Shown: in pieces, positions 22,130 through 44,262 of the stretch | How positions within the stretch are numbered: the stretch's first letter is position 1 | Layout: every line of letters begins with the position of its first letter | Assembly: GCA_902762495.1 (NCBI GenBank) | Contig: CACWOL010000040.1 | Location: forward strand, 1 to 50,974 | DNA length: 50,974 nt | Direction: 5' to 3' | Source of the DNA: an uncultured bacterium | Lineage (GTDB): Bacteria; Verrucomicrobiota; Lentisphaeria; Victivallales; UBA1829 | The notes under the pieces: model-generated | Databases searched by the model: none | What the model saw: the letters and a program-made list of their open reading frames with translations, nothing else | What the model was told of the DNA's origin: nothing | Made by a program: the position numbers and the translations under genes

Positions 22130-24088
22130 TCAGCGAGGAGCGCCGGCTCCGGGAGCCGCACCCGCGCCGGGAGCGCCGGCAGGTCTGGGAGCGCCGCCCG
22201 CGGCACCCGCACCGGGAGCGCCGGCAGGTCTGGGAGCGCCGCCCGCGGCACCCGCACCGGGAGCACCGGCAGGTCTGCCAGCTCCGCCCATGCCGCCGAA
22301 GCCGCCCATGCCGCCGCCGAAGCCGCCCATGCCGCCGCCGGGACGCTGGCCGCCGTTGGCGTTAGCCGCGGGAGCTGGATCCGGCTTGGGCTGCGGAGGA
22401 ACCGTGCCGCCGAAGGAATCGAACAGCGGGTCTTTGTTGACCGGGAGTTCGAACGCGGAGGTCGTGAGGCAGGTGAGATCGGTCTTGGACTTGATGCCGT
22501 AGACTTTCTCGTTGAAGTAGTCGATCATGTAGTTCATGTCTTCGGCCGTAACGGCGTGGCCGGACTTGTGGATGTTCGCCACGATGTTGTCGCCGAGGCC
22601 AAGCTTCTCATAGGAGGCCTTCGCCGCGCGATAGGTAAGCCACATGGCCGGGGCGTTCACCCAGTCTTCACCCGTGCAGGAGCCGATGATGAAGAGGTAA
22701 CGGTTCGGATCGGCGCAGAGCATGCAGAGCATGTGCTGGTCGACGGGGAGGGTCTTCGGATCCTTGAAGCACATGAACTTGTTGTTGAACCAGCCCTGTT
22801 CGCCGGTGGCCTGGAGGCTGTCGATCGGTTCATTGCGGCCGTACTTGTATTCCTTGGAATCGTTCTTGCTGGAGAAGTCGTAGGTCTTGCCTTCGGAGAC
22901 GTAGCGGTACATCGCGACGCCGCCCGCGCCGGAGCAGGACGGAGCGCACATCTTGATGCGGGGCTCGAACGCGCCGCAGACCATGGCGGCCTTGCCGTAA
23001 CGGGAGACGCCGGTCACGATGGTGTTCTTCGGGTTGATGTTGAGTTCCTTGCCAGCGCCCTTTTCGAGGGCGTCGATGATACGGGAGATGCCCCAGCTCC
23101 AGGCGAGCAGTTCGCCGGTCTGTTCCTTCCAGTCTTCGCCGTAGGGATACAGATCGTAGAAGAGGCCGGTGTGACGGTTGTTGTCAGCGGCGATATTGGT
23201 GACGCCGCCCATGAAACCGCCGCCACCGCCGAAGGTCATGGAAGCATAGCCGCGGGAGGCCGCGACCGCTTCCTGCGCGCCGTGCATGCCGAGGACGACG
23301 GGCCAGCCGCCTTCCGGCATTTTGACGGTGTCGCTGGCGGTCGGGAGCGTGATATTGACGTCGAACGTGCCGGACTTGCCGGTGCTCTTGCGGGTGACGG
23401 TCACGGTCATGGACTTGCGGCCGTTGTTGTCGCCTTCGTTCATCTTGTAGGAGACGTCGACTTCGGAGCCGTCGTGCCACACGCCGTACATGTAGTATTC
23501 ATAAAGCTTCTTGATCTCTTCGGCGCGCTTGGACCAGTTGTCTTTGGTCACTGCGGTGCCGTCGCGGAACTTCATGATCTCAGGATACGCATCGGAGGCT
23601 TTCAGGTCCTTGACCATCGGGAAACCGCTGTCGTCGGCCTTCTCGGGTTCCGTGCTTCGGATGCCGCCGGGGAGCGTGGCCATATCGGGAGCCGGAGCGC
23701 TTTGTTCGCCGCCGCCCATGCCGCCGAAACCGCCCATACCCATGCCGCCGCCGAAGCCGCCGAAGCCGCCCATGCCCATGCCGCCGAAACCGCCCATGCC
23801 GCCTGCGGGTGCGCCAGCACCGGCACCGGGGCCGCCTGCGGGTCTCTGTCCGCCTGCGCCGGGACCGCCAGCGGGAGCACCGCCGCCGAAGCCGCCCATG
23901 CCCATGCCGCCGAAACCGCCCATGCCGCCGCCGAAGCCGCCCATCGCGGGTGCGCCGCCGGGAGCAGCACCGGGTCCGCCAGCGGGTGCGCCGCCGGTCG
24001 GAGCCTGTGCCGAAAGTGAAGTTGCGAGGAAGAGCGCCCCTGCGAGAACCGAGCAGGAGACGACCGCCGATTGGACATAACGTTTCAT
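22130..24088 (-). CDS. Secreted glucuronoyl-esterase-like (CE15) hydrolase with Gly-rich tracts at both ends
   Basis: 652 residues from ATG 24088, preceded by GGAG. Signal peptide ends near SLSAQ (27). Residues 30-120 and 590-652 are Gly/Met/Ala/Pro-rich (GGFGGMGMGGFGG; then APRPAGAPGAGAAGG repeats). Between them is an alpha/beta-hydrolase: nucleophile Ser362 in GVSRYGKAA, which is the G-x-S-R-x-G-K signature of CE15 enzymes, and a late HKSGHAVTAEDM His. Such enzymes cut the ester between glucuronoxylan and lignin. It has its own promoter and terminator. Assignment to CE15 is by motif and size, not by search. Confidence 0.83.
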   Translation of the reverse strand: MKRYVQSAVVSCSVLAGALFLATSLSAQAPTGGAPAGGPGAAPGGAPAMGGFGGGMGGFGGMGMGGFGGGAPAGGPGAGGQRPAGGPGAGAGAPAGGMGGFGGMGMGGFGGFGGGMGMGGFGGMGGGEQSAPAPDMATLPGGIRSTEPEKADDSGFPMVKDLKASDAYPEIMKFRDGTAVTKDNWSKRAEEIKKLYEYYMYGVWHDGSEVDVSYKMNEGDNNGRKSMTVTVTRKSTGKSGTFDVNITLPTASDTVKMPEGGWPVVLGMHGAQEAVAASRGYASMTFGGGGGFMGGVTNIAADNNRHTGLFYDLYPYGEDWKEQTGELLAWSWGISRIIDALEKGAGKELNINPKNTIVTGVSRYGKAAMVCGAFEPRIKMCAPSCSGAGGVAMYRYVSEGKTYDFSSKNDSKEYKYGRNEPIDSLQATGEQGWFNNKFMCFKDPKTLPVDQHMLCMLCADPNRYLFIIGSCTGEDWVNAPAMWLTYRAAKASYEKLGLGDNIVANIHKSGHAVTAEDMNYMIDYFNEKVYGIKSKTDLTCLTTSAFELPVNKDPLFDSFGGTVPPQPKPDPAPAANANGGQRPGGGMGGFGGGMGGFGGMGGAGRPAGAPGAGAAGGAPRPAGAPGAGAAGGAPRPAGAPGAGAAPGAGAPR

Positions 24089-24400
24089 AAAAACTCCATT
24101 ATGTTTGGGGGTTGATAAATGAGGAAAGGTTAATTGATTTTTGATGAACGCAAACACATTTTTGAACTGTTTTTGACAACAAAAAGTGCATTTCACCGAT
24201 AGTATACCACCCATCCGAACAAAAGTCAAGGTTAATTCACGCAAAAATGTCGGCATTATTGATTATTCCCTAAAAAGAAGAGATATTAATTCTTTTTTTG
24301 GAATTTCGGATTATTTAACAAGTTCCAATATTCACTCGTTCGCATCGTATGCCGTCCGAAACAAAATAGGTTCTTTTCAATCTTTTTTTCTTTCCGGCGC
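24089..24400 (-). other. Intergenic divergent region
   Basis: About 310 bases of AT-rich DNA between the esterase and the regulator genes. It holds the two promoters listed separately and no gene that I can support; base composition is unlike both flanks. Confidence 0.5.
24201..24229 (-). promoter_or_regulatory. Promoter of the CE15-like esterase gene
   Basis: Minus-strand TTGACT and TATACT with a 17-base spacer, close to consensus, giving a 5' leader of about 105 bases. Confidence 0.7.
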
Positions 24401-24429
24401 TTGCATTATGCGCGCACACGGGATATATT
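24401..24429 (+). promoter_or_regulatory. Promoter upstream of the TM1266-like regulator and the nitrogenase-like operon
   Basis: TTGCAT and TATATT with a 17-base spacer, 43 bases before the ATG at 24473. No other convincing promoter was found between here and hydE, so the whole 12 kb operon may start here. Confidence 0.65.
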
Positions 24430-24472
24430 AGATGGTAATCTTTTCAACCGCAACGAACGGAACGGAATCGCA

Positions 24473-24730
24473 ATGGAAACACGTGTGGCAGTACTGGCGA
24501 TCCTCGCGGAGAGTTTTAACTCCGCGGAGCAGATCAACACGCTCCTGCACGATTTCGGGCCGTACATCGTAGGCCGCATGGGCCTGCCCTACCGCGAAAG
24601 GAACGTCAACGTCATCAGCATCGTGATCGATGCGCCGCCGGACAAGATCAACGCCCTTGCCGGAAAACTCGGACGCATCGAAGGAGTCACGGCGAAAGCC
24701 GTCTACTCCAACGTCATAACAACTCACTGA
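24473..24730 (+). CDS. TM1266-family iron-only hydrogenase system putative regulator
   Basis: 85 residues; the ATG at 24473 is preferred over 24401 because that codon overlaps the predicted -35 and the shorter form has family length. The fold is a small ACT/NikR-like beta-alpha-beta-beta-alpha-beta domain: TRVAVLAILAES start, a PYIVGRMGLPYRERNVNVISIVIDAP core and a terminal VTAKAVYSN strand. Homologues sit beside [FeFe]-hydrogenase maturation genes and are presumed ligand-responsive regulators, with no proven DNA binding. Here it precedes a hydE-like gene and nitrogenase-like genes. Confidence 0.85.
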   Translation: METRVAVLAILAESFNSAEQINTLLHDFGPYIVGRMGLPYRERNVNVISIVIDAPPDKINALAGKLGRIEGVTAKAVYSNVITTH

Positions 24731-24778
24731 GTCCGCGCCCGGCATAGCCGGAACCGGATTCATCCGATCAGATAACAA

Positions 24779-24886
24779 GCTCTCCCCTGACGCCGAAATG
24801 CTTTTTGAGGCGGAAGACCGGAAGTGCGGCATCAGACCGGACTGCGGAAACCGCTTCGGGCGGTCGCGCATTCCATCCGATCGAGC
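24779..24886 (+). promoter_or_regulatory. Structured leader, candidate riboswitch aptamer ahead of hydE
   Basis: The 258-base gap between the regulator and hydE can fold into a closed multi-branch structure: outer GCTC (24779-24782) with GAGC (24883-24886); arm CTGACGCCG (24787-24795) with CGGCATCAG (24827-24835); arm ACCG...GCGG-AAA-CCGC...CGGT (24836-24864). A terminator follows immediately. That layout (aptamer then terminator) is typical of riboswitches or protein-sensing attenuators. The ligand class is unknown; likeness to the molybdenum/tungsten cofactor family is only a thing to test. Confidence 0.4.
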
Positions 24887-24890
24887 ATAC

Positions 24891-24933
24891 ACAGCCGGAT
24901 CCTTCACCAGGGGATCGCGGCTGTTTCTTTTTT
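24891..24933 (+). terminator. Intrinsic terminator/attenuator before hydE
   Basis: ACAGCCGGATCC (24891-24902) pairs with GGATCGCGGCTGT (24912-24924), followed by TTCTTTTTT. Because it lies between the regulator and the operon, read-through would set operon expression. Confidence 0.75.
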
Positions 24934-24988
24934 CCCGGCGGACGCCGGACGGGAAACGGCGGCGGAAACCGTAGGAAGAAACCGCGTC

Positions 24989-26056
24989 ATGAACGCACGG
25001 AAACGACAGAACGAGCTCAGGATCGACCGCCTGAACGAGGAGAAGCGCCTCCCGCACGAGGAGTGGACGGCGCTGCTCTCCACATGGGACGGTTCCGACC
25101 GCGAATACGCCGCCGGGATCGCCCGCGGGCTCGCGACCACCCGGTTCGGGCACAACGTCTTCGTGCGCGGCATCGTGGAGTTCTCCAACGTCTGCCGCAA
25201 CGACTGCCTGTACTGCGGCATCCGCAAGTCCAACCTGAACTTCGAACGGTACCGTCTGACCGAGGCGGAGATCGTCGATTGCTGCGACGCCGGATATCGA
25301 TACGGATTCCGCACGTTCGTGCTTCAGAGCGGCGAGGACGCGACATACTCGCCGGAACGCCTCGCCGCGCTGGTCCGCACGCTCAAAACGAAGCACCCGG
25401 ACTGCGCCGTGACGCTCTCGGTCGGCGAGCTGACGCGAGAGGAATATCAACTTTTGTTCGACGCGGGCGCGGACCGCTATCTCCTGCGGCACGAGACCGC
25501 CGATCCGGAGCACTATGCGAAACTCCACATGCCGAATCAGAGCTGGGCACGCCGCATGCAGTGTCTGCGCGACCTGAAGGAGATCGGATTCCAGACCGGA
25601 TGCGGATTCATGGTCGGTTCGCCGTACCAGACGCCGGACACGCTCGCGAAGGACATGGAGTTCATCACGAGATTCCGCCCCGCCATGATCGGCATCGGCC
25701 CGTTCATCCCGCACTGCGACACGCCGTTCAAAGATCAGCCTGCCGGCAGCGTGGAACTCACGCTTTTCCTGCTGAGCCTGTGCCGCATCCTGCACCCGGA
25801 CGTACTGCTGCCCGCCACGACCGCACTCGGCACCATGGACCCGATTGGCCGCGAAAAGGGCGTGCTCGCCGGAGCAAACGTCATCATGCCGAACCTGTCG
25901 CCGGAACAGGTCCGCGCCAAATACATGCTTTACAACAACAAAACCGCGGTCGACGTGGACACGCACATTACGACGTCCGATCTGCAGGCGCGCCTGCGGC
26001 GGATCGGCTACACGATCAAGGTCACCCGCGGGGATTACGGAGAAACGTCATGCTGA
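24989..26056 (+). CDS. hydE: [FeFe]-hydrogenase H-cluster maturase HydE-like radical SAM enzyme
   Basis: 355 residues, the usual HydE length; the ATG at 24989 is chosen since upstream in-frame codons would overlap the terminator. The cluster motif is [13 protein letters not shown] (Cys69, 73, 76). HydE-typical blocks follow: [28 protein letters not shown], and [18 protein letters not shown] with [14 protein letters not shown]. In hydrogenase assembly HydE processes the iron-cysteine unit made by HydG. HydG and HydF are absent here, so its substrate may differ. It overlaps the first nifH-like gene by 7 bases (ATGCTGA), as do the two later junctions of similar sequence. Confidence 0.88.
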
Positions 26057-26820
26057 AACTCGCATTCTACGGAAAAGGCGGCATCGGGAAATCCACGACC
26101 GTTTCGAACCTCGCCTCCGCGTTCGCCGCGAACGGTCTCAAGATCATGCAGATCGGCTGCGACCCGAAGGCCGATTCCACCGCGTCCCTGCACGGCGGCG
26201 CGCGCATCCGTTCCATCCTCGACCTCGTCCGCGAACGCAACAACGATTTCACGCTCGACGAAATGGTCCGCGAGGGCGACGGCGGCGTGATCTGCGTGGA
26301 GGCGGGCGGCCCGACGCCCGGACTCGGCTGCGCCGGACGCGGCATCATCACCGCCCTCGAAAAACTTCAGGAGAAGGGTGCATACGACGTGTACAGTCCG
26401 GACGTGGTGCTGTACGACGTGCTGGGCGACGTGGTCTGCGGAGGATTCTCCATGCCGATGCGCAAAGGCTACGCCGACCGCGTGTTCATCCTCACCTCCG
26501 GCGAGACCATGTCCATCTACGCCGCCGCGAACATCGCGATGGCGGTGAAGAATTTCAGGGGGCGCGGCTACGCTTCGCTCGGCGGATTCGTGCTGAACCG
26601 CAGGAACGCGCCGGACGAGGACGCGAAGGCCGCGAAACTTGCGGCGGATTTCGATTCGACCGTCGTCGGCGCGCTCGACTGGAGCGAAACAGTCCAGCAG
26701 GCCGAACAGCTCGGGAAGACCGTCGTGCACGCGTTCCCGGACAGCCCGATGGCCGCGCAGTACCGCGCGCTCGCGGACGCCGTGCTCGCCGCCGCCCGGA
26801 AAGGAGACGCCCCATGCTGA
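26050..26820 (+). CDS. NifH-like reductase, copy 1
   Basis: 256 residues. The P-loop GKGGIGKST (9-16), switch DPKADST, the [4Fe-4S] ligands Cys94 (GLGCAGRGI) and Cys130 (DVVCGGF), and Arg97 at the nitrogenase ADP-ribosylation position are all present. It should be an ATP-dependent, homodimeric electron donor to the downstream component-1-like proteins. It is shorter than true NifH (about 290) because the C-terminal tail is missing. About 50% identical by eye to copy 2 at 29292. Overlaps hydE and the nifD-like gene by 7 bases at each side. Confidence 0.93.
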
Positions 26821-28148
26821 AACGATTGAACGGCGAAGACGACATGACCGGGGCGGAAGCCGCGATCCGCGACGCCGAATTCCCCGTGCCGTTCGTCTCC
26901 GGCCTGGAATACAACGCACCCGCCCGCGGGCCGTGGAACATCGTCCACACGGGCATGCTGATCCCAGAATCGCACCAGGTATTCGCCTGTGCGCAGGGCT
27001 GCCTCCGCGGCGTGATCCTGACCGCCGCCGAAATGATCGCCATGGACCGCATGTCGTGGATCTCCGTGGATCAGAACGACCTGTTCGACGGCTCGCTGGA
27101 ACGCAACATCGTGGACGGCACGGCAGAGATCATCCACAAGCTGCCGAAGAAACCGCGCGCGCTCCTGCTCTTCATCAGCTGCGTCCACCTCTTCGCCGGA
27201 TGCGATTTCGAGGTCATGCTGAACGAGCTCCGCGCGATGTTCCCGGACATCGACTTCATCGACTGCTACATGAACCCGACCATGCGGAAAAGCGGCCTCA
27301 CGCCCGACCAGCTCATGCGCCGTCAGCTCTACGCGCCGTTCATGCCCTGCCCCGCAGACAAGAATGCAGTGAACCTGATCGGCAACGACCGTCCGACCGA
27401 CGACTCCAGCGAGCTCGTTCGGCTGATCCGCACCGCCGGACGCGAACTCCGCGACATCACGCTGTGCAAGACCTATGACGAATATATGCGCATGGCGAAA
27501 AGCGCGCTGAACATCACCTATCTGCCAACCGCGGCAGCATCCGGAGACGCGCTCGAAAAACGTCTCGGACGTAAACATCTTTATCTGCCGATCTCCTACG
27601 ATTTCGACGAGATCGAACGCAATCTGGCGCGTCTCGCCGATGCGCTCGGGATTGACGCGCCCGACTGGACCGAAGCGAAACGGAACGCCGTCCTCGCGCT
27701 CGAACAGGCGAAAGCCATCGTCGGGGACACCCCGGTCGAGATCGACTACACCGCCACGCCGCGCCCGGTCGGGCTCGCCCTGCTCCTTGCCGAACACGGG
27801 TTCCGCGTCACGCGCGTCTACACGGACGCCATGATCGAGGAGGAACGCCCCGCGTTCGAACGTCTCCGCGCGCTCGCGCCCGATTTGCTGCTGACCGCCA
27901 CGGTCAACGTGAAGATGCGGTTCGCGGGCAAGGGCGTCCACGAATCCGGCGACGTGCTGGCGATCGGGCAGAAAGCCGCGTATTTCAGCGGCGCGAAGCA
28001 CTTCGTGAACATCGTTTCCGGCGGCGGCATGTACGGATTCGACGGCATCGCACGTCTCGCCCAGCGCATGATCGAAGCCGTCACGCACGAACAGGACACC
28101 GAGGTCGTGATCCAGTACAAGGGCCTCGGATGCAGGAGCTGCTTATGA
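26814..28148 (+). CDS. Nitrogenase component-1-like subunit (NifD-like), copy 1
   Basis: 444 residues. Conserved cluster-ligand candidates: Cys59 and Cys63 in [10 protein letters not shown], Cys123 in [10 protein letters not shown], near positions where NifD holds P-cluster Cys residues. The segment [22 protein letters not shown] aligns with the NifD FeMo-co region but lacks Cys at the ligand position of NifD (Cys275), so a standard FeMo cofactor site is absent. An extra Cys precedes TYDEY and is shared with copy 2. The C-terminal block [18 protein letters not shown]...FDGIARLAQ resembles the C-terminus of copy 2. Expected partner: the next gene. Substrate unknown. Confidence 0.85.
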
Positions 28149-29290
28149 AACAGACCGCCCGAATCATCTCCATCCACGCGGCCGACACTTCCGGCGTGTG
28201 CTCCATGCTGTACGAACTCGGCGGCATGGTCGTCGTCCACGACGCCTCCGGCTGCAATTCCACCTATTCCACGCACGACGAGCCCCGCTGGTACCGTCAG
28301 GACAGCATGATCTACATCTCCGCCCTCACGGAGGCCGATGCGATCCTCGGCAACGACGAAAAGCTCATCGCCGACGTCGCGGCCGCCGCAAAGGACCTCT
28401 CGCCGCGCTTCATCGCGCTCTGCGGCGCGCCCGTCCCGCTTCTTGCCGGGACCGATTTCCCGGCCATCGCCGCCGAGGTCGAATCCCGCACCGGGATCCC
28501 GGCGTTCGGGCTCCACACCAGCGGCATGCACTCCTACCTGACCGGGGCATCCGAGGCGCTGGCGGCCATCGTGGGACGGTTCTGCACCGACAAGCTCCCG
28601 CGCACAAATACCCCCTCCGCGAACATCATCGGCGCGACCCCGCTCGATTTCTCCATCAACGGCACGGTCGAATCCATGATCGAATGGCTGAACAAATCCG
28701 GGTTCGAACTCGTCTCCTGCATGGCAATGGGCAGCACGCTCGACGACATCCGCCGCGCCTCCACCGCGCATGTCAACCTCGTCGTCTCCTCCTGCGGGAT
28801 CGCGACCGCCGAACTCCTCCGGGAACGCTTCGGCACGCCGTGGGTCGCGGGCGTCCCCGTCGGGAAAAGTTTCTCCGGCAAGCTCGCGTCCGCATTAAAG
28901 ACCGCAGTGGAAACCGGCAAATGCACCCTGCCCTGCGCGGAACGCGATGCCTCCTCGCCCGGAAAGGAACTCGCCATCCCCGGCGAAATGGTCTTCTCCG
29001 GTTCGCTGGCCGCCGCGATCGAATCCGACCTCGGCGCGCCGTGCCGTGTGCTGTGCCCGCTGGAGGCGGAGGACCATCTGCTCGCGCCCGGCGACGTCCG
29101 CATCTTCGACGAAGACGCCGCATCAGAAGCGTTCGCCGCATCGTCCGGCGTGATCGCCGACCCGATGTACGCGCCCGTCTGCCCGCCGGACGTCCCGTTC
29201 CACCGCCTCCCGCACGAGGCATTTTCCGGCAGATGTTACCGCAAAGAATCCCTGAACCTGATCGACCGTCCCCTTCCCTGGAGGTTTTAA
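28145..29290 (+). CDS. Nitrogenase component-1-like subunit (NifK-like), copy 1
   Basis: 381 residues; ATGA overlap with the preceding gene favours this start over an in-frame ATG 15 bases upstream. Cys19 (SGVCSML), Cys37 (DASGCNST) and Cys93 (ALCGAPVP) match the order and approximate spacing of the three P-cluster Cys of NifK. A DEPRW motif and a LGNDEKL segment follow. With copy 1 of the NifD-like protein it could house an iron-sulfur cluster between subunits. No His/Cys cofactor pair of a FeMo site was identified. It is shorter than NifK (523), like most nitrogenase-like proteins. Confidence 0.83.
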
Positions 29291-29291
29291 C

Positions 29292-30056
29292 ATGCTGAAA
29301 CTCGCGATATACGGCAAAGGCGGCATCGGCAAATCGACCGTGACATCCAACCTCGCGGCGGCGTTCGCGCGCCTCGGCAAAAAAGTGATCCAGATCGGCT
29401 GCGACCCGAAGGCCGACTCCACCATCAACCTGCTCGGCGGCGACCCCGTGATCCCCGTCATGAACTTCCTGCGCGAACACGACCGCGAACCGGAACGCAT
29501 CGAGGAGATCGCGAAGACCGGATTCGGCGGCGTGCTGTGCATCGAGACCGGCGGCCCGACCCCCGGCCTCGGCTGCGCCGGACGCGGCATCATCACGACA
29601 TTCAGCCTGCTCGCCGACCTGAAATTGTTTGAAACGTACAAGCCTGACGTGGTGCTGTACGATGTGCTGGGCGACGTGGTTTGCGGCGGATTCGCCGCCC
29701 CGATCCGCGAAGGATACGCCTCACAGGTCCTGATCGTGACCTCCGGCGAGAAAATGGCGCTCTACGCGGCGAACAACATCAACAGCGCCGTGCACAATTT
29801 CGAAGACCGCGGCTACGCCACGGTGCGCGGCATCGTGCTGAACCGCCGGAGCGTCGACCGCGAGGAGGAGAAAGTCCGCGCCTTCGCGGACGCGAACAAC
29901 CTCCCGATCGTAGCGGACATCCCGCGCAGCGATGATATCATCCGTTATGAGGACATGGGAAAAACCGTGGTCGAGGGCGATCCCGGACTCGACGTCAGCA
30001 AGCGCTTCCTCGCGCTCGCGCAACTTCTTCTCGACGAGGAGAAAGCATCCGCATGA
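29292..30056 (+). CDS. NifH-like reductase, copy 2
   Basis: 254 residues starting one base after the preceding stop. P-loop [17 protein letters not shown], Cys95 (GLGCAGRGI), Arg98 and Cys131 (DVVCGGF) as in copy 1. Divergence is concentrated at about 45-75, around the switch and partner-facing loops, so the two copies may serve different component-1 pairs. Two NifH-like genes, each preceding its own D/K-like pair, argue for two related complexes in one operon and not for a tandem of one. A 4-base overlap links it to the next gene. Confidence 0.93.
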
Positions 30057-31316
30057 ATCACGCGTACTCCATCACGGCGGCCGAACTCGCGGCACGGGGC
30101 AAAGACGACATCCCGCCCGGACTGCTCTCCTCCGCCCATCTCATCTACAGCTCCCCCGCCACGCTGGCGTTCAACTCGCCCGGTGCACAGGGATTCGGCG
30201 TAAAGCGCGCCGGTCTCGCCGTGCCCGGATCCGTCATGCTGCTGGTCGCTCCGGCCTGCTGCGGACGCAACACCTCCGCACTCGGCTGTGAGGCGTCCCT
30301 CGCCGAACGCTTCTTCTACCTCATGCAGGACGACACGGACATCGTGACGGGGCGTCATCTGGCGCGCATCCCCGAGGCGGTGAAGGAAGTCTGCGATTCC
30401 TGCGCGACGCGTCCGTCCGCGGTCATGATCTGCATCACCTGCGTGGACGCCCTGCTCGGCACGGACATAGAACGCGTCTGCCGGAAGGCCTCGGACTACG
30501 CCGGCGTCCCGGTCGTGCCGTGCTACATGTACGCGCTGACCCGCGAAGGACGCCTGCCGCCGATGGTCTCCGTGCGGCGTTCGGTCTATTCCCTGCTCCA
30601 GCCGCGTGAAAAAGTCCCGACCTCCGTGAATATCCTCGGTTTCTTCTCGCCTCTGCGCGACGACACCGAGCTGTACACGCTGTTGCGTTCCGCAGGAGTC
30701 CGTGCGATCCGCGAGATCTCCCGTTGCGCTGACTACGAAGAATACCAGAAAATGGCCGAGGCGAACTTCAATCTCGTGCTCAATCAGGAAGCACGCCACG
30801 CCGCCGCCGACCTTCAAAAACGTTTGGGTATCCCGTCTGTCGAGCTCGCCCGCCTCTACCAGACGGACAAGATCGCGAACCAGTACCGGCTGCTCGGCCA
30901 GGCCGTCGGCGCGGAGTTCGACGATGCGCCGTACCGCGAAAACGCGGAAAAAGCAATCACGGATTTCCACAACAAATACGGATGCCGTACGTTCGCCGTG
31001 GGCGAATGGCTGAACGCCGACCCCTTCGAACTTTCGTTGTCGCTGATCCGCAACGGGTTCGCCGTCTCCGAAATCTTCGGCACGGTCGGCGGCTCCAATT
31101 TCGTCTACGTGAAGAAGATCGCCACGCTCAGCCCGGATCTATAACGGCGCGGATTCGCAGTGCGACACGGTCATCGGACGCGACGCGATGTACTATCATC
31201 CGACGCTGCCCGGCGTGCCGTGGAACGACGAATGCCAGCCCTTCGGATACGCCGGAGTCACCGCGCTCTTCGCCGAACTCGGCAAAGCGCTTTCGGAAAA
31301 GGAGGCCGCACGATGA
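30053..31316 (+). CDS. Nitrogenase component-1-like subunit (NifD-like), copy 2, with apparent +1 frameshift near 31140
   Basis: The frame from 30053 stops at 31144 (362 residues). In the next frame, with no stop, the sequence continues [21 protein letters not shown] and [18 protein letters not shown], then ends at TGA 31314-31316. That segment aligns with the C-terminus of copy 1 ([12 protein letters not shown]...FDGIARLAQ). It also ends with a 4-base overlap on the next start, like all neighbours. So the gene is probably 420 residues long and one or two bases are missing or real. Cys69 and Cys70 (VAPACCGRN), Cys79, Cys130 ([11 protein letters not shown]) and the pre-DYEEY Cys are present. 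No FeMo-co Cys. Confidence 0.82.
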
Positions 31317-32374
31317 AAAGCCTTCTGAAACATCTTTCGCCGTTCGCGCCCGACCAGTCCGGAGCCGTTTCCGCGCTCTTCGACTTCGGCGGGCTTATCG
31401 TAATCTGCGACGCCGGCGGCTGCACCGGGAACATCTGCGGATTCGACGAACCGCGCTGGTTCATCCGCAAAAGCGCCGTCTTCAGTGCCGGACTCCGCGA
31501 TATGGACGCCATCCTCGGCCGCGACGACAAGCTCGTTTCCAAGCTCCAGAACGCCATGGACGGTTCCGGCCTCAAGTTCTCCGCCATCATCGGAACGCCC
31601 GTCCCGGCGATCATCGCGACCGATTTCAAGGCGCTGAAACGCATGGCGGAGAAACGCACCGGACTGCCCGCGATCACGGTCCCGACGACCGGAACACGTC
31701 ACTACGACCGTGGCGCGTCCGACGCCTGGCTGGAGCTGTTCAAAACGTTTGCGACTGAAAAACTTGATGTTGATCCCGGCACGGTCGGCATCCTCGGCGC
31801 GTCGCCGCTGGATTTCCCGACACTCGACGCCGGGAACCTGCTGTCCGATACGCTGAAAAAAGACTGCTGGAAGACAGTCAAATGCTATGGCATGGGCGCG
31901 GGTCTTGATGATGTAAAACAAGCGTCCGCCGCAGCAAAAAACATCGTTGTTTCGCCTGCCGGACTCGCCGCCGCGAAGTATCTGCAAAAGATGTTCGGCA
32001 CGCCCTATGAGGTACAGTGTCCGTGGCTGCCGGAACAGGTCCTCGATGCCCTGCCCGCGCTCGCCGGGAAAAAGACGCTCGTGATTCATCAGCAGTTCGC
32101 CGCGAACGCCGTACGCGACGCGATTATGAAACTCGATCCGGCCTCGCAGGTCACGGTCGCGTCCTGGTTCATGATGGAATCGGAGTTCATGCACGAAAAC
32201 GATTTTCGGATCGAGAGCGAGGAGGCGTTCATCGAAGCGGTCGCGAACGGCGGCTACGACGCGGTCGTCTGCGACAGCCGTCTGCGCGCCGCCCTGCCCC
32301 GGACGCAGGCATTCGACATCATCGACTTCCCGCATTTCGCCGTCTCCGGGCGGCTTCTCGACGAGGTGAAATAA
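31313..32374 (+). CDS. Nitrogenase component-1-like subunit (NifK-like), copy 2
   Basis: 353 residues; the ATG at 31313 overlaps the reconstructed end of the previous gene. It aligns with copy 1 at ISP/SGAVSALFDFGG, DAGGCTG, DEPRW and AIIGTPVPAIIATDF. Only Cys37 of the three cluster-type Cys of copy 1 is kept: position 19 is Val (SGAVS) and the third is Ile (AIIGTPVP). Pair 2 would therefore have at most one beta-side ligand and might hold a [4Fe-4S] cluster of the BchNB type, or none. One base separates it from hypF. Confidence 0.83.
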   Translation: MKSLLKHLSPFAPDQSGAVSALFDFGGLIVICDAGGCTGNICGFDEPRWFIRKSAVFSAGLRDMDAILGRDDKLVSKLQNAMDGSGLKFSAIIGTPVPAIIATDFKALKRMAEKRTGLPAITVPTTGTRHYDRGASDAWLELFKTFATEKLDVDPGTVGILGASPLDFPTLDAGNLLSDTLKKDCWKTVKCYGMGAGLDDVKQASAAAKNIVVSPAGLAAAKYLQKMFGTPYEVQCPWLPEQVLDALPALAGKKTLVIHQQFAANAVRDAIMKLDPASQVTVASWFMMESEFMHENDFRIESEEAFIEAVANGGYDAVVCDSRLRAALPRTQAFDIIDFPHFAVSGRLLDEVK

Positions 32375-32375
32375 C

Positions 32376-34751
32376 ATGACTGCCAGCGTTTCCACCACGA
32401 TTTTCCGCATCTACGGCGTCGTCCAGGGCGTCGGATTCCGTCCGTTCGTCAGCCGGATCGCCGTCCGCGCCGGACTGACCGGCAGCGTCGCGAACAAGGG
32501 TTCGTATGTGGAAGTCCACGCTCAGGGCGGCGAGGAAGCATTGAAAGACTTCCGTGCCGCGCTCGAACACGAGGCCCCGCCGCGGTCCGCGATCCTGAAG
32601 ATCATTTCCCGTGTCCGCATGGAGCCGCCGTATCCGACGTTCGAGATCATAGAGAGCGAACACGAAACAGGGGACATCTTCGTCTCGCCGGACATCGCCA
32701 CGTGCGACCTGTGCAAACAGGAGCTTTTCGATGTCACCAATCGCCGGTATCTGCACCCGTTCATCAACTGCACCGCGTGCGGCCCGCGCCTGACCATTCT
32801 CGACGCCATGCCGTACGACCGCGAACGCACCAGCATGGGGTATTTCCTGATGTGTCCGCAGTGCGAGACCGAATACACCTCGCCGGAATCGCGCCGCTAC
32901 GACGCCCAGCCGGTCTGCTGTCACGACTGCGGCCCGGAGGTCTACCTCATCGGACGCCCCGAACGCAACGAAAAGGCGATCACCGCCGCCCGCCGCGCGA
33001 TCCTCGACGGCAAGATCGTCGCGATCAAGGGCATCGGCGGATTCCATCTGTGCTGCAACGCCCGCGACGCGCAGGCCGTGGCGCGTTTGCGCGAACTCAA
33101 GTACCGTCCCATGAAGCCGTTCGCCGTGATGATGGATTCGCTGGAGACGGTCCGCCGAGAATGCGTGATCCTGCCTGGTCAGGAGGAAATCCTGGACGGC
33201 CATCAGAAACCGATCATCCTGCTCAGGAAACGCCCGGAAAGCACGCTCCCCGACGTCCTCGCGCCCGGCAATCCGACACTCGGCGTGATGCTGCCGTACG
33301 CGCCCGTCCAGATGCTTTTGTTCCATTTCAACGACGACCTGACCATGCCCGATTGCCTCGTCATGACCAGCGGCAACGTCTCCGGCGCGCCCATCTGCCG
33401 CAGCGACGAGGACGCGCTCGCCGAGATCGCCGGGTTCTGCGACGTGATCCTGTCCCACAACCGCAGGATCCGCCTCCGCGCGGACGATTCGGTCATGGAC
33501 TGGCTGGACGGTCGCCCGTACATGATCCGCCGGTCGCGCGGCTACGCGCCGCTTCCGTTCTTCGTCTCCGGCGACTTCCGCGGGCAGGTGCTCGGCATCG
33601 GCGGCGAGCTCAAAAACACCTTCTGCCTCGCCAACGGCGGTCTCTTCTATCCTTCGCCCTACATCGGCGACATGGAGGACCTGCGCACGGTCCGCGCCCT
33701 GCGCGAATCGGTCGCGCGGATGTCCGAACTGCTCGAAATGAAGCCGCAGCTCGTCTGCTGCGACCTGCACCCGAAATACAATTCATCCGCCGTCGCGGGC
33801 GAACTCGGCATCCCCGTCCTGAAAATCCAGCACCACTACGCCCACGTGCTCTCCTGCATGGTCGAAAACGACTTCACGGACGAGGTCATCGGCGTGTCGT
33901 TCGACGGCACCGGATACGGCACCGACGGCACGATCTGGGGCGGGGAATTCCTGCGTGCCAGACCGGACGGCTTCACTCGCGCCGGATATATCAAACCATT
34001 CCTTCAGGCGGGCGGCGATGCCTCCGCTCGCGAAGGCTGGCGCATTGCCGTTTCCATGATCGCGGGGATGTTCCCGGCCGATGAGGCGGAAAACATCGTT
34101 GCTTCGCTCGACCTCTGCTCGCCCGGCGTTTATAAGTTCCAGAAGAACATGCTGGACAAGAAACTGAACTGCGTACTTTCGACCAGCGCCGGGCGTCTTT
34201 TCGACGCCGTCAGCACGATCCTCGGCATCCGCAAATCGTCCACGTTCGAGGGCGAGGCGTCCATGGCGCTCCAGTTCGCCGCGGAAGCGTGGAACGAGGC
34301 GCATCCCGGACAGGAAGACAACGCTCTGCCCTGCCCCGATTTCAACCACGACGCCTCCGGCGCGATCGTCCTGCCGACGGATTTGCTTGTGAAGGACATC
34401 GTCCTTGCCCGGCTCGACGGCGCGGATTCCGGCATGCTCGCCGCCCGGTTCCATTCCCAGCTCGCCAATATGATCGCGAAGACGTGCGAAGCCATCCGCG
34501 CGGGCACCGGACTGAACACCTGTGCGCTGACCGGAGGTGTGTTCCAGAACCGCCTGCTCACGACGCTCTGCGCCGGACTGCTGCGCGCCGCAGGATTCCG
34601 CGTGCTGCTGCACGGCATGATCCCGCCCAACGACGGCGGCATCGGCGCGGGCCAGGCGTTCGCCGCCATGTACCATCTGAACCACCCGAACAAACATTCA
34701 TCCATATCACATTCATCCATACCTGGAGAAGGAGACGGCTTATGTGTGTAG
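32376..34751 (+). CDS. hypF: Carbamoyltransferase HypF (makes the cyanide ligand precursor)
   Basis: 791 residues, slightly longer than E. coli HypF (750). Domain order is standard: acylphosphatase (about 10-95, IYGVVQGVGFRPFVSRIA), two zinc-finger-like Cys pairs (CDLCKQ, CTACGP, CPQCET, CHDCGP), YrdC-like nucleotide domain (KGIGGFHLC, MKPFAVM), and Kae1-like carbamoyltransferase with HHYAHVLSC and FDGTGYGTDG. It turns carbamoyl phosphate into a carbamoyl-AMP that HypE converts to thiocyanate for Fe-CN formation. A HypF gene following nitrogenase-like genes without a hydrogenase is unusual. Confidence 0.95.
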   Translation: MTASVSTTIFRIYGVVQGVGFRPFVSRIAVRAGLTGSVANKGSYVEVHAQGGEEALKDFRAALEHEAPPRSAILKIISRVRMEPPYPTFEIIESEHETGDIFVSPDIATCDLCKQELFDVTNRRYLHPFINCTACGPRLTILDAMPYDRERTSMGYFLMCPQCETEYTSPESRRYDAQPVCCHDCGPEVYLIGRPERNEKAITAARRAILDGKIVAIKGIGGFHLCCNARDAQAVARLRELKYRPMKPFAVMMDSLETVRRECVILPGQEEILDGHQKPIILLRKRPESTLPDVLAPGNPTLGVMLPYAPVQMLLFHFNDDLTMPDCLVMTSGNVSGAPICRSDEDALAEIAGFCDVILSHNRRIRLRADDSVMDWLDGRPYMIRRSRGYAPLPFFVSGDFRGQVLGIGGELKNTFCLANGGLFYPSPYIGDMEDLRTVRALRESVARMSELLEMKPQLVCCDLHPKYNSSAVAGELGIPVLKIQHHYAHVLSCMVENDFTDEVIGVSFDGTGYGTDGTIWGGEFLRARPDGFTRAGYIKPFLQAGGDASAREGWRIAVSMIAGMFPADEAENIVASLDLCSPGVYKFQKNMLDKKLNCVLSTSAGRLFDAVSTILGIRKSSTFEGEASMALQFAAEAWNEAHPGQEDNALPCPDFNHDASGAIVLPTDLLVKDIVLARLDGADSGMLAARFHSQLANMIAKTCEAIRAGTGLNTCALTGGVFQNRLLTTLCAGLLRAAGFRVLLHGMIPPNDGGIGAGQAFAAMYHLNHPNKHSSISHSSIPGEGDGLCV

Positions 34752-34960
34752 GTCTTTCCGCAAGAGTTGTCAGCATTGAGGATGGCACCGCCCTCATCGA
34801 CGCGTCCGGCGCGAAACGCAAGGTTTCGGCGGACCTCATCGACGATCTGGAGCCCGGCGACTACGTCATGGTCCACGCCGGCGTCGCTATCGCGAAAATC
34901 ACGGACACGGACGCGGACGAATCCCGCAAGATCATGGAGTCGCTCGATGGAATCGGCTAA
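34742..34960 (+). CDS. hypC: HypC-type Fe(CN)2CO scaffold/chaperone
   Basis: 72 residues, family length, beginning with the essential Met-Cys (MCVGLSARVV); after removal of Met the N-terminal Cys coordinates the Fe(CN)2CO unit carried with HypD. AAGGAGA lies before the start. It overlaps the end of hypF by 10 bases and hypD by 14, so synthesis of C and D is coupled. A HypC-like protein normally delivers iron to the large subunit of a NiFe hydrogenase; none is visible here. Confidence 0.93.
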   Translation: MCVGLSARVVSIEDGTALIDASGAKRKVSADLIDDLEPGDYVMVHAGVAIAKITDTDADESRKIMESLDGIG

Positions 34961-35987
34961 ACAGATCATCGAATCCTACAACGGACGCAAACTCCGCATC
35001 ATGGAGGTCTGCGGCACCCATACCCACGAGATCTTCCGTCTCGGCATCCGCCGCATTCTGCCGCCCCAGATCGAACTTATCTCCGGCCCCGGGTGCCCCG
35101 TCTGCGTGACGCCCGCCGGCTACATCGACGAGGCGGTCATGCTCGCGCTCGAACACGGCGCGGTCATCTGCACGTTCGGCGACCTGATCCGCGTGCCCGG
35201 CTCGGAAATGAGTCTCGCAGGGGCGCGTTCCAGGGGCGCGGCGGTGAAGACCGTCTACTCCCCGCTGGACGCGGTCGATTTCGCACGGGAAACCCCGGAC
35301 AAACAGGTCGTGTTCCTGGCGGTCGGATTCGAGACGACGGTCCCGGCGGCGTGTCTGGCGGTAAAGAAAGCCGCCGCCGAAGGGCTCGCGAACTTCTCGA
35401 TCCTCGGCGCGAACAAGACCATGCCGAACGCGTACAAGGCGCTGAAGGGCAGCGCGGACGCGTTCCTATACCCCGGCCATGTGAACGCCATCACCGGGAC
35501 CGCCGTCTGCGAAGACCTCGTGAAACTCGGCGTTTCCGGCGTCGTCGCGGGATTCACAGCCGACGAGATTCTCACCGCGCTCGCGGTCATCGTCAAGCTG
35601 TCCGCCTCCAGCGAACCGTTCTTCCGCAACTGCTATCCGCGCGTGGTGAGGAGCGAAGGCTCGCCCGCCGCGCTGAAGCTGATAGACACGGTCATGGAGC
35701 CGTGCGACGCGGAGTGGCGCGGCCTCGGCGTGATCCCGATGTCCGGCCTGAAGCTCCGCCCGGCGTTCGCCGCGTACGACGCCCGGCTGAAGTTCAGCCT
35801 GCCGCCCGTCACGGGCCGGAGCAATCCCGCCTGCCGCTGCGGCGAGGTGCTTCAGGGTAAATGCAAATCCACCGACTGCAAACTTTTCGGGACCGCTTGC
35901 ACCCCGCTCCATCCGGTCGGGGCGTGCATGGTCTCCAACGAAGGGGCGTGTTCCGCCTACTACCAATACGGAGGATATTCTCAATGA
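34947..35987 (+). CDS. hypD: HypD, [4Fe-4S] protein assembling Fe(CN)2CO
   Basis: 346 residues. The conserved blocks are MEVCGTHTHEIFRLG, GPGCPVCVTP (CxxC redox/iron-binding pair) and the C-terminal Cys-rich CRCGEVLQGKCKSTDC followed by CTPLHPVGACMVS, which hold the [4Fe-4S] cluster. It forms the HypCD complex on which iron receives CN and CO. The ATGA overlap with hypE and the preceding overlap make hypC-D-E one translational block. Confidence 0.95.
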   Translation: MESAKQIIESYNGRKLRIMEVCGTHTHEIFRLGIRRILPPQIELISGPGCPVCVTPAGYIDEAVMLALEHGAVICTFGDLIRVPGSEMSLAGARSRGAAVKTVYSPLDAVDFARETPDKQVVFLAVGFETTVPAACLAVKKAAAEGLANFSILGANKTMPNAYKALKGSADAFLYPGHVNAITGTAVCEDLVKLGVSGVVAGFTADEILTALAVIVKLSASSEPFFRNCYPRVVRSEGSPAALKLIDTVMEPCDAEWRGLGVIPMSGLKLRPAFAAYDARLKFSLPPVTGRSNPACRCGEVLQGKCKSTDCKLFGTACTPLHPVGACMVSNEGACSAYYQYGGYSQ

Positions 35988-36994
35988 ACAATAACGAATT
36001 CGTCACGCTCGCCCACGGCGCGGGCGGACGGCAGACCGCCGAACTCATCGACCGCGTCTTCAAGGCGCATTTCTCCAACCCGGATTTCACCGGCGACGAC
36101 GCCGCGGTCCTGCCCGTGGACGCAGGGAAGATCGCGTTCACCACGGACGGCTTCATCGTGTCGCCGTTCGAGTTCCCCGGCGGCAACATCGGCAAGCTCA
36201 GCATCTGCGGCACGGTCAACGACCTCGCGTGCATGGGCGCGAAGCCGCTCTACCTCTCCTGCGCGTTTGTGATCGAGGAGGGATTCCCCCTCGCCAAGCT
36301 CGAAGAGATCGCCGCCGCCATGAAGAGGACCGCCGACGAGGCCGGAGTCCGCATCGTGGCGGGCGACACCAAGGTCGCAGGCAAGGGCCAGGTCGACCAC
36401 GTCTTCATCACCACGACCGGCGTCGGGCAGCTCACCGAGGGCGTCCGCACGTCCGGCGCGTTCGCGAAGCCCGGCGACGCCGTGATCGTGACCGGCGACG
36501 TGGGCCGTCACGGCTGCACCATCCTGCTCGCCCGCAACGAATTCGAGATCGATGCCGACGTGACCAGCGACTGCGCCCCGCTCTGGGGCACGGTGAAGAG
36601 CATGATCGACGCCTCGCACGACATCCATGTGATCCGCGACGCCACGCGCGGCGGCGTCGGCACCGTCCTGTACGAGATCGCAGACCAGAGCAAAGTCGGG
36701 ATCCGCCTCAATTCCGCCGACGTCCCGGTCGCCCCCGAAGTGCGCGGCGTCTGCGGCATGCTCGGACTCGAACCGCTTTACCTCGCCTGCGAGGGACGCC
36801 TCGTCGTCTTCGCGCCGAAATCCGAGGCTCCGGCCATCCTCGAAGCGCTCCGCAAAGGCCCCTACTCCGCCAACGCCGCGATCATCGGCGAAGTCGTCGC
36901 CGATCACCCCGGCAAGGTCGTCATGACCACCGAGATCGGCACGCAATCGCTCCTGCCTCAGCCTGGCGGCGAGCTCCTCCCCAGGATTTGTTAA
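35984..36994 (+). CDS. hypE: HypE, cyanide-ligand donor
   Basis: 336 residues. An AIR-synthase-like ATP-binding fold (GDDAAVLPV, FTTDGF) with the catalytic C-terminal Cys in PRIC. It dehydrates the carbamoyl group received from HypF to a thiocyanate and passes CN to HypCD. It is the last gene of the operon. HypA and HypB (nickel insertion) are absent, so the set makes only the iron-ligand part of the NiFe site. Confidence 0.95.
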   Translation: MNNNEFVTLAHGAGGRQTAELIDRVFKAHFSNPDFTGDDAAVLPVDAGKIAFTTDGFIVSPFEFPGGNIGKLSICGTVNDLACMGAKPLYLSCAFVIEEGFPLAKLEEIAAAMKRTADEAGVRIVAGDTKVAGKGQVDHVFITTTGVGQLTEGVRTSGAFAKPGDAVIVTGDVGRHGCTILLARNEFEIDADVTSDCAPLWGTVKSMIDASHDIHVIRDATRGGVGTVLYEIADQSKVGIRLNSADVPVAPEVRGVCGMLGLEPLYLACEGRLVVFAPKSEAPAILEALRKGPYSANAAIIGEVVADHPGKVVMTTEIGTQSLLPQPGGELLPRIC

Positions 36995-38547: not shown

Positions 38548-38584
38548 ACCGCATCCCGACCTGGCTGGCCGGGATGCGGTTTTT
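38548..38584 (+). terminator. Trp attenuator terminator
   Basis: ACCGCATCCCG (38548-38558) pairs perfectly with CGGGATGCGGT (38570-38580), then a T-run. A possible competing pair, GCCAGG (38467-38472, just after the leader stop) with CCTGGC (38560-38565), could disturb it. Confidence 0.88.
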
Positions 38585-38675
38585 CCGTATCGCATCCGAA
38601 CCGAATCAAAACGATCCCTTCCGATACCAAATTCATCTTATTCATAAACACAACAAAACAAACGCAGGAGAAAAC

Positions 38676-40150
38676 ATGAAAGAAACAACCCTGGAGGAAT
38701 TCCGGAAGATGGCGGAGGCCGGCGAAGTCGTGCCGGTCTGCCGCGAGATCCCCGGCGATATGGACACGCCGGTGTCCGTGCTGGAACGCTTCGTGCAGGA
38801 CGACTATGTCGCGCTGCTGGAAAGCGTGGAAGGCGGCGAAAACCTCGGCCGCTACTCGTTCCTCGGCGTGAACCCGTACGGGATCTTCACGGTCGAGAAC
38901 GGCGTGCCGTATCTGGAAATGCACGGCGAACGCCGCGCGCTGGAGTTCGAAGGCAATCCGCTGAACGCCCTTCGCGGCATCATCGGCAAGAAGAAAGTCG
39001 CGCACGACCCGGAGCTCCCGCCCCTCCCGGGCGGCGCGATCGGGCGTCTGGACTACGAGGCGGCCTGTCTGTTCGAGGAACTCCCCGCGCCGAAGAAGGC
39101 GATCCGCGGCCCGGTCTGCGCATTCATGCTCACGAACGAGATCATCGCGTTCGACAACAAGCAGCACACGATCAAGGTCGTGGTGAACGTCGAGCCGGAC
39201 CATTTCTCCTCGGCCGAGGAAGCCTACGCGAGCGCGACGCACCGGATCGCCGCCATCATCGACAAGATCTGCCGCCGGGCGGCGTCGCACCGCGATTATG
39301 TCTCCGACGAGCACGTGGAGCTGAAACCGGAGATGACGCACGAGGCGTTCCTGGAGATGGTGAAGCAGGCGAAACACTGCATCGTGGAGGGCGAAGTGAT
39401 TCAGGTGGTGCCCTCGCAGGCGTTCTCCGCCAAATCCGACATCCCGCCGTTCAGCATCTACCGCGCGCTGCGCCTCATCAACCCCTCGCCGTACATGTTC
39501 TACCTGAAACTCGGCGGCGACATCCTGATCGGTTCCTCGCCGGAGACGCTCGTGAAGCTCGAAAACGGCGTTTCGCTGGTGCGCCCGATCGCGGGGACGC
39601 GTCCGCGCGGCGACACCCCGGAAAAGGATATCGCGCTGGAAAAATCGCTCATCGGCGACGAGAAAGAACGCGCGGAACACCTGATGCTGGTCGACCTCGG
39701 CCGCAACGACATCGGGCGCACGGCGAAACCGGGCAGCGTCATGGTCTCCGATTTCATGCACGTGGAACGCTACTCCCACGTGATGCACCTGGTCAGCAGC
39801 GTGGAGGGCCAGCTCCGCGACGACTGCGATGCCTTTGATCTCGTTTCGACCGCGTTCCCCGCCGGGACCCTCAGCGGAGCCCCGAAGATCCGCGCCATGG
39901 AGATCATCCACGAGCTCGAACCTGGCCCGCGCGGCTTCTACGGCGGCGCGGTCGGGTATTTCAGCTGCGACGGCAACATGGACCTCGCGATCACGATCCG
40001 CACGATCGAAGTGTCCGGCAGCCGCCTGAAAGTGCAGGCCGGATGCGGCATCGTGGCGGACTCCGTGCCGGAGATGGAATATCAGGAAACACTGAACAAG
40101 GCGCGTGCTCTCTTCAAGGCCGTGGAATTCGCGCAGAAAGGCTTCAAATA

Positions 40151-40151
<1 letters not shown>
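38676..40151 (+). CDS. trpE: Anthranilate synthase component I
   Basis: 491 residues; CAGGAG before the ATG at 38676. Characteristic chorismate-binding blocks IAGTRPRG, HLMLVDLGRNDIGR and TLSGAPKIRAMEI are present. It makes anthranilate from chorismate with ammonia supplied by TrpG. The N-terminal LLESVEGGENLGRYSF contains the LLES-type feedback-inhibition site. The stop and trpG start share one base (TAATG). Confidence 0.97.
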
Positions 40152-40731
<580 letters not shown>

Positions 40732-40738
<7 letters not shown>

Positions 40739-41727
40739 ACGAAGCACTGAAAAAAGTCATGGCGGGCGGCATTCTGACCGAAACCGAAAGCGCCGCAATG
40801 GTCGAAGCGATTGCGAATGGAGAAAACACGATCGCGGCAGCCGGACTGTTTACGGCCCTCTCCCTGCGTGGCGAAAGCGTGTCCGAAATGACCGGAGCCG
40901 CAGGATTCCTGCGCGACCGGATGCTTGGCATAGACGCGGGCGACTGCGCGGACATCGTAGGCACCGGGGGCGACGGCGGACGTTCCTTCAATATTTCTAC
41001 TACCGCTTCCTTTGTCGCGGCAGGCGCGGGCGTCCGCATGGCGAAACACGGCAACCGCGCGGTATCCGGCAAATGCGGCGCGGCCGACGTGCTGGAGGAG
41101 TTTGGCGTGAAGCTGAACGACACCCCGGAATCGCTGGCAAAAAGCATTGATGAAAACGGCATTGCGTTCCTCTTCGCGCGGAACCTGCACCCCGTGATGG
41201 CGAAGGTCGCCCCCCTGCGCCGCGACCTCGGAATCCGCACGATCTTCAACCTCGTCGGCCCGCTCGCGAACCCCGCGAAGGCCGTGTACATGGTCGTCGG
41301 CGTCTACCACGAACGCCTCGTCATGCCGTTCGCGGAAGTCCTGCGGAATCTGGGCGTGCGGAACGGATTTGTGGTTCACAGCGAGGACGGCCTCGACGAA
41401 ATCTCCAGCCTCGCCGTCACGCACGCCGCCGAGCTTTCCCCGGACGGAATCCGCGAAATCGTCATCGACCCGAAAGAACTGCTGGACGATTCCGCCTTAT
41501 ATGAAGGCTCCCTCGCGGGCGGCGACAAGACCGAAAACGCCCGCATCCTGATGGACATCCTTTCCGGGCGCGACCACACCGCGAAGCGCGGGGCCGTGCT
41601 CCTGAACGCCGCCGCCATCATTTGCGCCGCCGGGCTCGGCGACTCCATCAAGGAGTGCATCCCGCTCGCGGAGCAATCCATCAATTCCGGCGCGGCGCTC
41701 GACAAACTCCGGAGGATCAGCGCATGA
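40732..41727 (+). CDS. trpD: Anthranilate phosphoribosyltransferase
   Basis: 331 residues. The PRPP site is IVGTGGDGGRSFNISTT, followed by KHGNRAVSGKCGAADVLE and the NLVGPLANP block of the family. It joins anthranilate and PRPP. Unfused from trpG. Overlaps trpC by 4 bases. Confidence 0.97.

Positions 41728-43081: not shown

Positions 43082-44245
<1,164 letters not shown>

Positions 44246-44262
<17 letters not shown>

Follow-up and report, generated by a model that had tools for sequence, protein, structure and literature searches.

An operon of HydE, nitrogenase-like proteins and HypCDEF as a probable HydG-independent assembly line for the H-cluster of [FeFe]-hydrogenase

The 50,974-nucleotide stretch of contig CACWOL010000040.1 (assembly GCA_902762495.1, positions 1 to 50,974, forward strand) from an uncultured bacterium of the Victivallales, referred to here as the window, contains an operon in which the radical SAM maturase HydE is followed by two nitrogenase-like sets, each made up of a NifH-like reductase (H1 or H2) and two component-1-like subunits (D1 and K1, or D2 and K2), and by HypF, HypC, HypD and HypE. 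This operon is probably an assembly line for the H-cluster of [FeFe]-hydrogenase that operates independently of HydG. The H-cluster is a 2Fe(CN)2(CO)3 cofactor, and HydG is the known source of its CO, its CN and its Fe(CO)2CN unit. Because the operon is mostly found where HydG is missing, among the genomes searched, it likely represents a second, HydG-free route to this cluster.

The window belongs to a genome of 2.76 Mb in 96 contigs (completeness 94.7%), and its closest D1 loci are those of Lentisphaeria/Victivallales genomes, several of them titled rumen, the nine top D1 matches being 92–95% identical. HydG was not found in a profile search of this genome, the only matches to the HydG model (59 and 58 bits, cut-off 312) being the two HydE genes. 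Four PF02906 matches are present, two of which are group A [FeFe]-hydrogenases (TIGR02512, 534 and 507 bits, cut-off 406) carrying the motifs TSCCP.W, MPC..K and E.MACPGGC, which we take to be the H-cluster motifs, and HydF is encoded on contig C16 (515 bits, cut-off 326). The sequence-only reading of the window, which had found neither a hydrogenase gene nor hydF or hydG, was therefore correct for the window; for the genome it stands as regards hydG and not as regards the hydrogenase and HydF. Since the two [FeFe]-hydrogenases and HydF are encoded outside the window, in a genome without HydG, the use of the CO/CN-ligated iron centre proposed in that reading could not be seen from the window. 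A [NiFe]-hydrogenase nearby that would use the hyp genes, which that reading had named as a point that would tell against it, was not found in the 94.7% complete genome: the search for a [NiFe] large subunit gave no match here, and gave matches in five of 14 control genomes. The assignment of the Hyp set to a [NiFe]-hydrogenase of this genome was accordingly rejected. The second HydE gene lies outside the operon, on contig C32 (L005:1498-2601; 339 bits, cut-off 255).

The same 100 related genomes, its own included, were searched for HydG, D1, HypD, HydF and PF02906, a PF02906 match serving in this survey as the stand-in for HydA. HydG without D1 was found in 69 genomes, D1 without HydG in 22, neither in nine and both in none (Fisher p = 3e-15, uncorrected for kinship). 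Genomes of the two types occur within the same genus in three cases (g1, g6 and g30), with one genome of each type in g6 and with 17 HydG and two D1 genomes in g30. In the window's own genus, 12 of the 13 members have D1 without HydG, and the remaining member, G006, has HydG at 919 bits without D1 and without HypD. HypD was found in 22 of 22 D1 genomes versus 17 of the 78 others, and a PF02906 match together with HydF over its cut-off was found in 87 genomes, of which 63 have HydG only, 19 D1 only and five neither. In these related genomes, H1-D1-K1 thus occupies the place of HydG. The HydG scores of the 100 relatives fall mostly into two classes, of about 830–950 and about 380–520 bits, both being near full-length matches; some genes of the lower class, such as that of G036, directly adjoin a HydE-like gene.

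The operon extends beyond the order. An alignment of 17 D1 sequences, scanned against genomes taken as one per GTDB species, gave at least 512 relatives, and the locus counts that follow rest on the best 80 of these (L049–L128), which fall in Lentisphaerota, in Firmicutes (Clostridium, Ruminococcus, Intestinibacter, Oscillospiraceae and Lachnospiraceae) and in one Spirochaetaceae genome. The search for HydG covered 50 D1-bearing genomes, mostly Firmicutes, of which at least three repeat members of the 100-genome set, as judged by matching hit places (L063 = G018, L103 = G098 and L127 = G089), and HydG was not found in 46 of the 50. Genomes in which it was not found include C. carboxidivorans P7 (record titled complete genome), C. 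ljungdahlii, in which the top match to the HydG model scores 68 bits, C. ragsdalei and the two R. albus genomes searched. Radical SAM genes scoring 178–228 bits against the same model (cut-off 312) are present in 17 of the 50; they cover about positions 30–397 of the 470 of HydG, the end of the profile being unmatched, and are probably ThiH. According to the accessible parts of a 2022 genome survey (PMC9431212), HydE and HydF occur without a HydG recognizable by known motifs in C. carboxidivorans P7, C. ljungdahlii, C. ragsdalei and two further acetogens, five acetogens carry HypCDEF without HypAB, and no straightforward explanation is offered there for the HydG gap. R. albus 7 made H2 in culture, as stated in the part of PMC6776011 available, and its [FeFe]-hydrogenase is named in reviews that were accessible in part. 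H1 and D1 are apparently fused into a protein of about 700 amino acids in Clostridiaceae BL-3 and one other source (P0071 and P0072, 698–700 amino acids), and two H1 reads of 698–700 amino acids among the loci agree with such a fusion.

The 80 loci were examined by tblastn with the window genes, HydF, HydG, HydA and a set of importer genes (the last taken from L122) as queries. Of these, 44 are of a full type and 25 were called importer-type, the remaining 11 being too short for a call. HydE was seen in 57 of the 80 and HydF in 34 (16 of 44 full-type, 15 of 25 importer-called and three of 11 short loci); HydA was seen in one and HydG in none. The locus with HydA, L095, reads hydA-hydF-H1-D1-K1-H2-D2-K2-hypF on one strand. 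In the full type, hypF follows K2 in 41 of 44 loci, the contigs of the other three stopping before this point, and in two of the 41 (L065 and L095) some of hypC, hypD and hypE were not found in the remaining contig room. The importer permease and binding protein were found in none of the 44. Among the importer-called loci, L119 is a 3.9-kb scrap, and L094 and L100 were rejected as importer-type, being split full-type loci with no importer seen and with H2-D2-K2-hypFCDE elsewhere in the same genomes; the 22 remaining loci carry the binding protein in 22 cases and the permease in 21. The importer genes are those for a binding protein, for a BtuC/FecC-like permease and for an ATPase that carries a fused TM1266-like domain (L122:6077-8163 and 12440-13561). 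In most importer-type loci they flank HydE-H1-D1-K1, with HydF adjoining, and occupy the place of the missing H2-D2-K2-Hyp block. A HypD search of 30 genomes with no such block visible at the locus found none in 26, operon-type HypD in the two split ones and HypD of another type (43% and 46% identity) in two; of the 28 unsplit genomes, 27 show importer genes, the exception (L104) being a short contig. The similarities of the binding protein extend to binders of iron, of nickel and of heme, among others, so the ligand is left unnamed; the cargo could be a finished precursor or simply iron. One importer-type genome, G148, of which 2.21 of 2.30 Mb were read, encodes an [FeFe]-hydrogenase with all motifs, HydE, HydF and H1-D1-K1, and whole-genome searches of it found neither HydG nor HypD.

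In the window, all eleven genes lie on the forward strand in the order and families that the sequence-only reading had given, as borne out by coordinates and profile matches, and a twelfth gene, encoding a TM1266-family putative regulator of the 'iron-only hydrogenase system' (24473–24730; TIGR03959, 105 bits, cut-off 61; PF21699), heads the operon 258 bases upstream of hydE. HydE (24989–26056; TIGR03956, 510 bits, cut-off 255) overlaps H1 by 7 bp. The Hyp genes, again on the forward strand, encode HypF carbamoyltransferase (32376–34751; TIGR00143, 710 bits, cut-off 466), HypC (34742–34960; TIGR00074, 66 bits, cut-off 48), HypD (34947–35987; TIGR00075, 389 bits, cut-off 193) and HypE (35984–36994; TIGR02124, 415 bits, cut-off 252), the last with a C-terminal PRIC. 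Features that we take to be catalytic marks are kept throughout the locus copies: all 33 complete HypE copies end in PRIC, all 36 HypC copies begin with MCV, all 36 HypD copies carry GPGCPVC, and all 39 long HypF copies contain the acylphosphatase motif together with the two zinc motifs. In a tree of 63 HypDs, the 39 operon-type sequences, that of the window and 38 others from three phyla in all, share one side of a branch with 100/100 support; the other side holds 24 sequences, 20 from relatives and four from D1-bearing Firmicutes, several of them on long branches. Operon-type HypD is linked to H2-D2-K2 also where the block sits apart from H1-D1-K1, and H2-D2-K2 and hypFCDE are inherited as one block. 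Upstream of the operon, on the reverse strand, lies a gene for a Gly/Met-rich protein of 708 amino acids without an NCBIfam match (22130–24256); downstream (38574–44262) an AraC-type regulator is followed by trpE-, trpD- and trpB-like tryptophan genes.

The nitrogenase-like genes fill the middle of the operon, likewise on the forward strand. H1 (26050–26820) and H2 (29292–30056) are NifH-like reductases of PF00142, H1 being described as a NifH-like ATPase/reductase; their P-loops and cluster cysteines are intact, as had been read from the window, and the latter are invariant (Cys94 and Cys130 of H1, n = 81 sequences; Cys95 and Cys131 of H2, n = 45). The four PF00148 genes of the window are the only ones in the genome, and no separate NifEN scaffold was found in it by the PF00148 search. 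D1 (26844–28148, the start possibly being 26814) has invariant Cys49, Cys53 and Cys113 (n = 81); K1 (28130–29290; 112 bits) has invariant Cys42 and Cys24 at 92% (n = 77); D2 (30053–31144; 100 bits) has invariant Cys69, Cys70, Cys127, Cys130 and Cys143 (n = 44); and K2 (31313–32374; 62 bits) has invariant Cys32, Cys37 and Cys42 (n = 42). D1 has the nitrogenase component-1 fold, with DPOR and methylthio-alkane reductase matching about as well as nitrogenase; a sequence search of the PDB set gave nothing meaningful for it. Sequence searches with K1 and D2 returned NifE as the top match. When K1 and D2 were aligned to NifE, with its cofactor-cysteine position and [4Fe–4S] residues assigned as we assume them to be, neither has a cysteine at the cofactor-binding position and D2 keeps those at the [4Fe–4S]-binding positions; the earlier statement that the D and K proteins lack the FeMo-cofactor cysteine is thus upheld for K1 and D2 by alignment, and for D1 and K2 as judged by eye only. 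From these residues, a [4Fe–4S] cluster at the D–K interface is likely and a FeMo-type cofactor in the D–K proteins is unlikely. The window's D2 is indeed short, as had been remarked of the D and K proteins, owing to a 38-bp deletion (within 31137–31312) that shifts the frame and that may be an assembly fault or a real loss; five close relatives retain the 38 bp, and D2 is 422–436 amino acids long in 42 of 45 sequences, the exceptions being that of the window and two shorter ones.

A pathway can be proposed in which carbamoyl phosphate would serve HypF and HypE as the source of cyanide, and HypC–HypD would build a CN/CO-ligated iron, as for [NiFe]-hydrogenase. H2-D2-K2, using ATP-driven low-potential electrons, may then convert the Hyp unit to an H-cluster-type Fe(CO)x(CN) species, for example by reduction of the iron or by providing extra CO from CO2. 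H1-D1-K1 would act as a NifEN-like scaffold with its reductase and present the unit to HydE. The last steps, synthesis of the di-iron subcluster and its insertion, would fall to HydE and HydF and follow the known pathway. Where H2-D2-K2-Hyp is missing from the genome, an iron precursor would come from outside through the ABC importer beside H1-D1-K1. This division of roles between the two H-D-K sets is drawn solely from which genes travel together. In its most far-reaching form, which is put forward tentatively and with more doubt than belief, the proposal is of a second natural H-cluster route in which a dedicated HypCDEF set makes the CN/CO-iron and two ATP-driven nitrogenase-like complexes remodel it for HydE, without HydG or tyrosine, while some gut bacteria import a ready-made organometallic precursor through a dedicated ABC transporter, so that it is shared like vitamin B12.

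Several observations weigh against HydG-independent H-cluster assembly by this operon. The evidence from HydG and D1 is an association and not proof, and the remodelling step is assumed because Fe(CN)2CO, compared with an H-cluster iron, carries one CN in excess and is short of CO. The sequence-only reading had proposed that many genomes with H, D and K and without hyp genes would speak against its CO/CN-iron system; such genomes were found for the H1-D1-K1 half, 26 of the 28 unsplit genomes without the H2-D2-K2-Hyp block at the locus having no HypD, and not for H2-D2-K2, which is followed by hypF in all 41 loci with room for it. The system does not always include Hyp, as importer-type genomes with H1-D1-K1 and no Hyp show, and the idea that every H-D-K locus requires it is false. 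Five of the 100 genomes (G023, G029, G033, G058 and G080) have a PF02906 match and HydF yet neither HydG nor D1, and among the 22 D1 genomes there are three without a PF02906 match or without HydF over the cut-off (G004, 94% complete, which has no HydF; G026, 80%; and G032, 56%). HydG stands beside D1 in four of the 50 wider genomes (C. drakei, C. thailandense, I. bartlettii and the genome of L096), only one of which 50 (G148, read nearly through) was searched for HydA; R. albus 7 and C. autoethanogenum lie outside the genomes examined. The window's own D2 is frameshifted. In addition, PMC9431212, in its accessible parts, suggests that all of its acetogens except C. autoethanogenum may have a HydG in the form of an atypical radical SAM gene. 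One of the five genomes with neither HydG nor D1, G029, is 96% complete, and its HypD (contig C18, L272) is of the non-operon type.

An alternative that we regard as unlikely is that the H-D-K proteins, HydE and Hyp build, or are, another nitrogenase-like metalloenzyme with a CO/CN cofactor of its own, the loss of HydG being a side effect of lineage. The PF00148 membership of the D and K proteins, the component-1 fold of D1 and the presence of two full H-D-K sets would suit such an enzyme, and the chemistry of Hyp and HydE could serve any Fe–CO–CN cofactor; however, D1 and HydG are mutually exclusive in the 100 genomes, three genera of which contain genomes of either type, HydF accompanies 34 of the 80 loci and hydA one, [FeFe]-hydrogenase genes persist without HydG, and K1 and D2 have no cysteine at the cofactor position. 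Of the earlier idea of a nitrogenase-like system tied to CO/CN-iron, the building of such a centre agrees with the evidence, and its use as cofactor by the nitrogenase-like enzyme itself is not favoured.

H1-D1-K1 might otherwise be a mere accessory reductase for HydE and HydF, with CO and CN coming from elsewhere (free diatomics or an atypical tyrosine lyase) and with Hyp serving another enzyme, an explanation to which we assign a low probability. It agrees with the importer-type loci that mostly do without Hyp, with the radical SAM genes found in 17 of the 50 D1 genomes, and with the atypical HydG candidate of PMC9431212, which, in the parts accessible, also refers to HydA being weakly activated by HydE and HydF with traces of diatomics. 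These radical SAM candidates nevertheless lack the end of the HydG profile, and C. ljungdahlii offers nothing above its 68-bit match; the operon HypD forms a dedicated clade tied to H2-D2-K2 even where split from H1-D1-K1, and no [NiFe] enzyme was found in the window's genome. That HydG is present and merely missed, H-D-K being unrelated to it, is very improbable and already largely refuted: many of the genomes are incomplete metagenome-assembled genomes, but the same search catches HydG in 69 of 100, divergent genes of the lower score class included, the complete-genome record of C. carboxidivorans P7 has none and the accessible parts of PMC9431212 report none there either, and G148 lacks HydG genome-wide while HydA, HydE and HydF are present.

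A HydG-free route with nitrogenase-like and Hyp proteins is apparently undescribed so far: literature searches, with subscription papers largely outside their reach, turned up no account of nitrogenase-like or Hyp proteins taking part in H-cluster assembly, so that an earlier report is possible. HydG is missing in rumen hydrogen producers and in industrial acetogens, and the operon gives a concrete, testable answer to this gap. If HydG-independent assembly by this operon is true, nitrogenase-like enzymes would gain a role as builders of organometallic cofactors, [NiFe]- and [FeFe]-hydrogenase maturation, regarded as separate, would meet in one pathway, and there would be a new means of obtaining active hydrogenase in foreign hosts; with the importer variant comes the question of whether cells share cofactor precursors. 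In the accessible parts of PMC6776011 and PMC12578642, 'nitrogenase' genes counted in surveys of rumen and gut are treated as potential sources of hydrogen with hardly any transcription, and such counts may partly be H-D-K genes.

Compared with known systems, the H-D-K sets share with CfbCD, DPOR/COR and methylthio-alkane reductase the pairing of a NifH-like protein with D/K-like pairs, and the top NCBIfam model of H1 is CfbC; however, the scores lie under the equivalog cut-offs (298.7 and 286.5 bits for CfbC, well below 402), and the partners at the locus are hydrogenase maturation genes. An F430- or chlorophyll-type reductase was rejected on these scores, which are far below the cut-offs. 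With the NifEN scaffold and NifH, the operon shares the component-1 fold of D1, the first match of K1 and D2 to NifE and a NifH-like protein for each D–K pair, and differs in the missing aligned cofactor cysteine of K1 and D2 and in the absence of further PF00148 genes from the genome; without that cysteine and without NifEN, nitrogenase itself was rejected as its identity. The HypCDEF maturation of [NiFe]-hydrogenase is matched in HypF, HypC, HypD and HypE, all over curated cut-offs and with key motifs, whereas no [NiFe] large subunit was found in the genome and the operon HypD falls in a separate clade. From HydE–HydF–HydG maturation the system differs in that HydG was not found here and in that H-D-K and Hyp proteins stand in its place, and it shares with that pathway, in this genome, HydE, HydF, the [FeFe]-hydrogenase target and the TM1266-family regulator.

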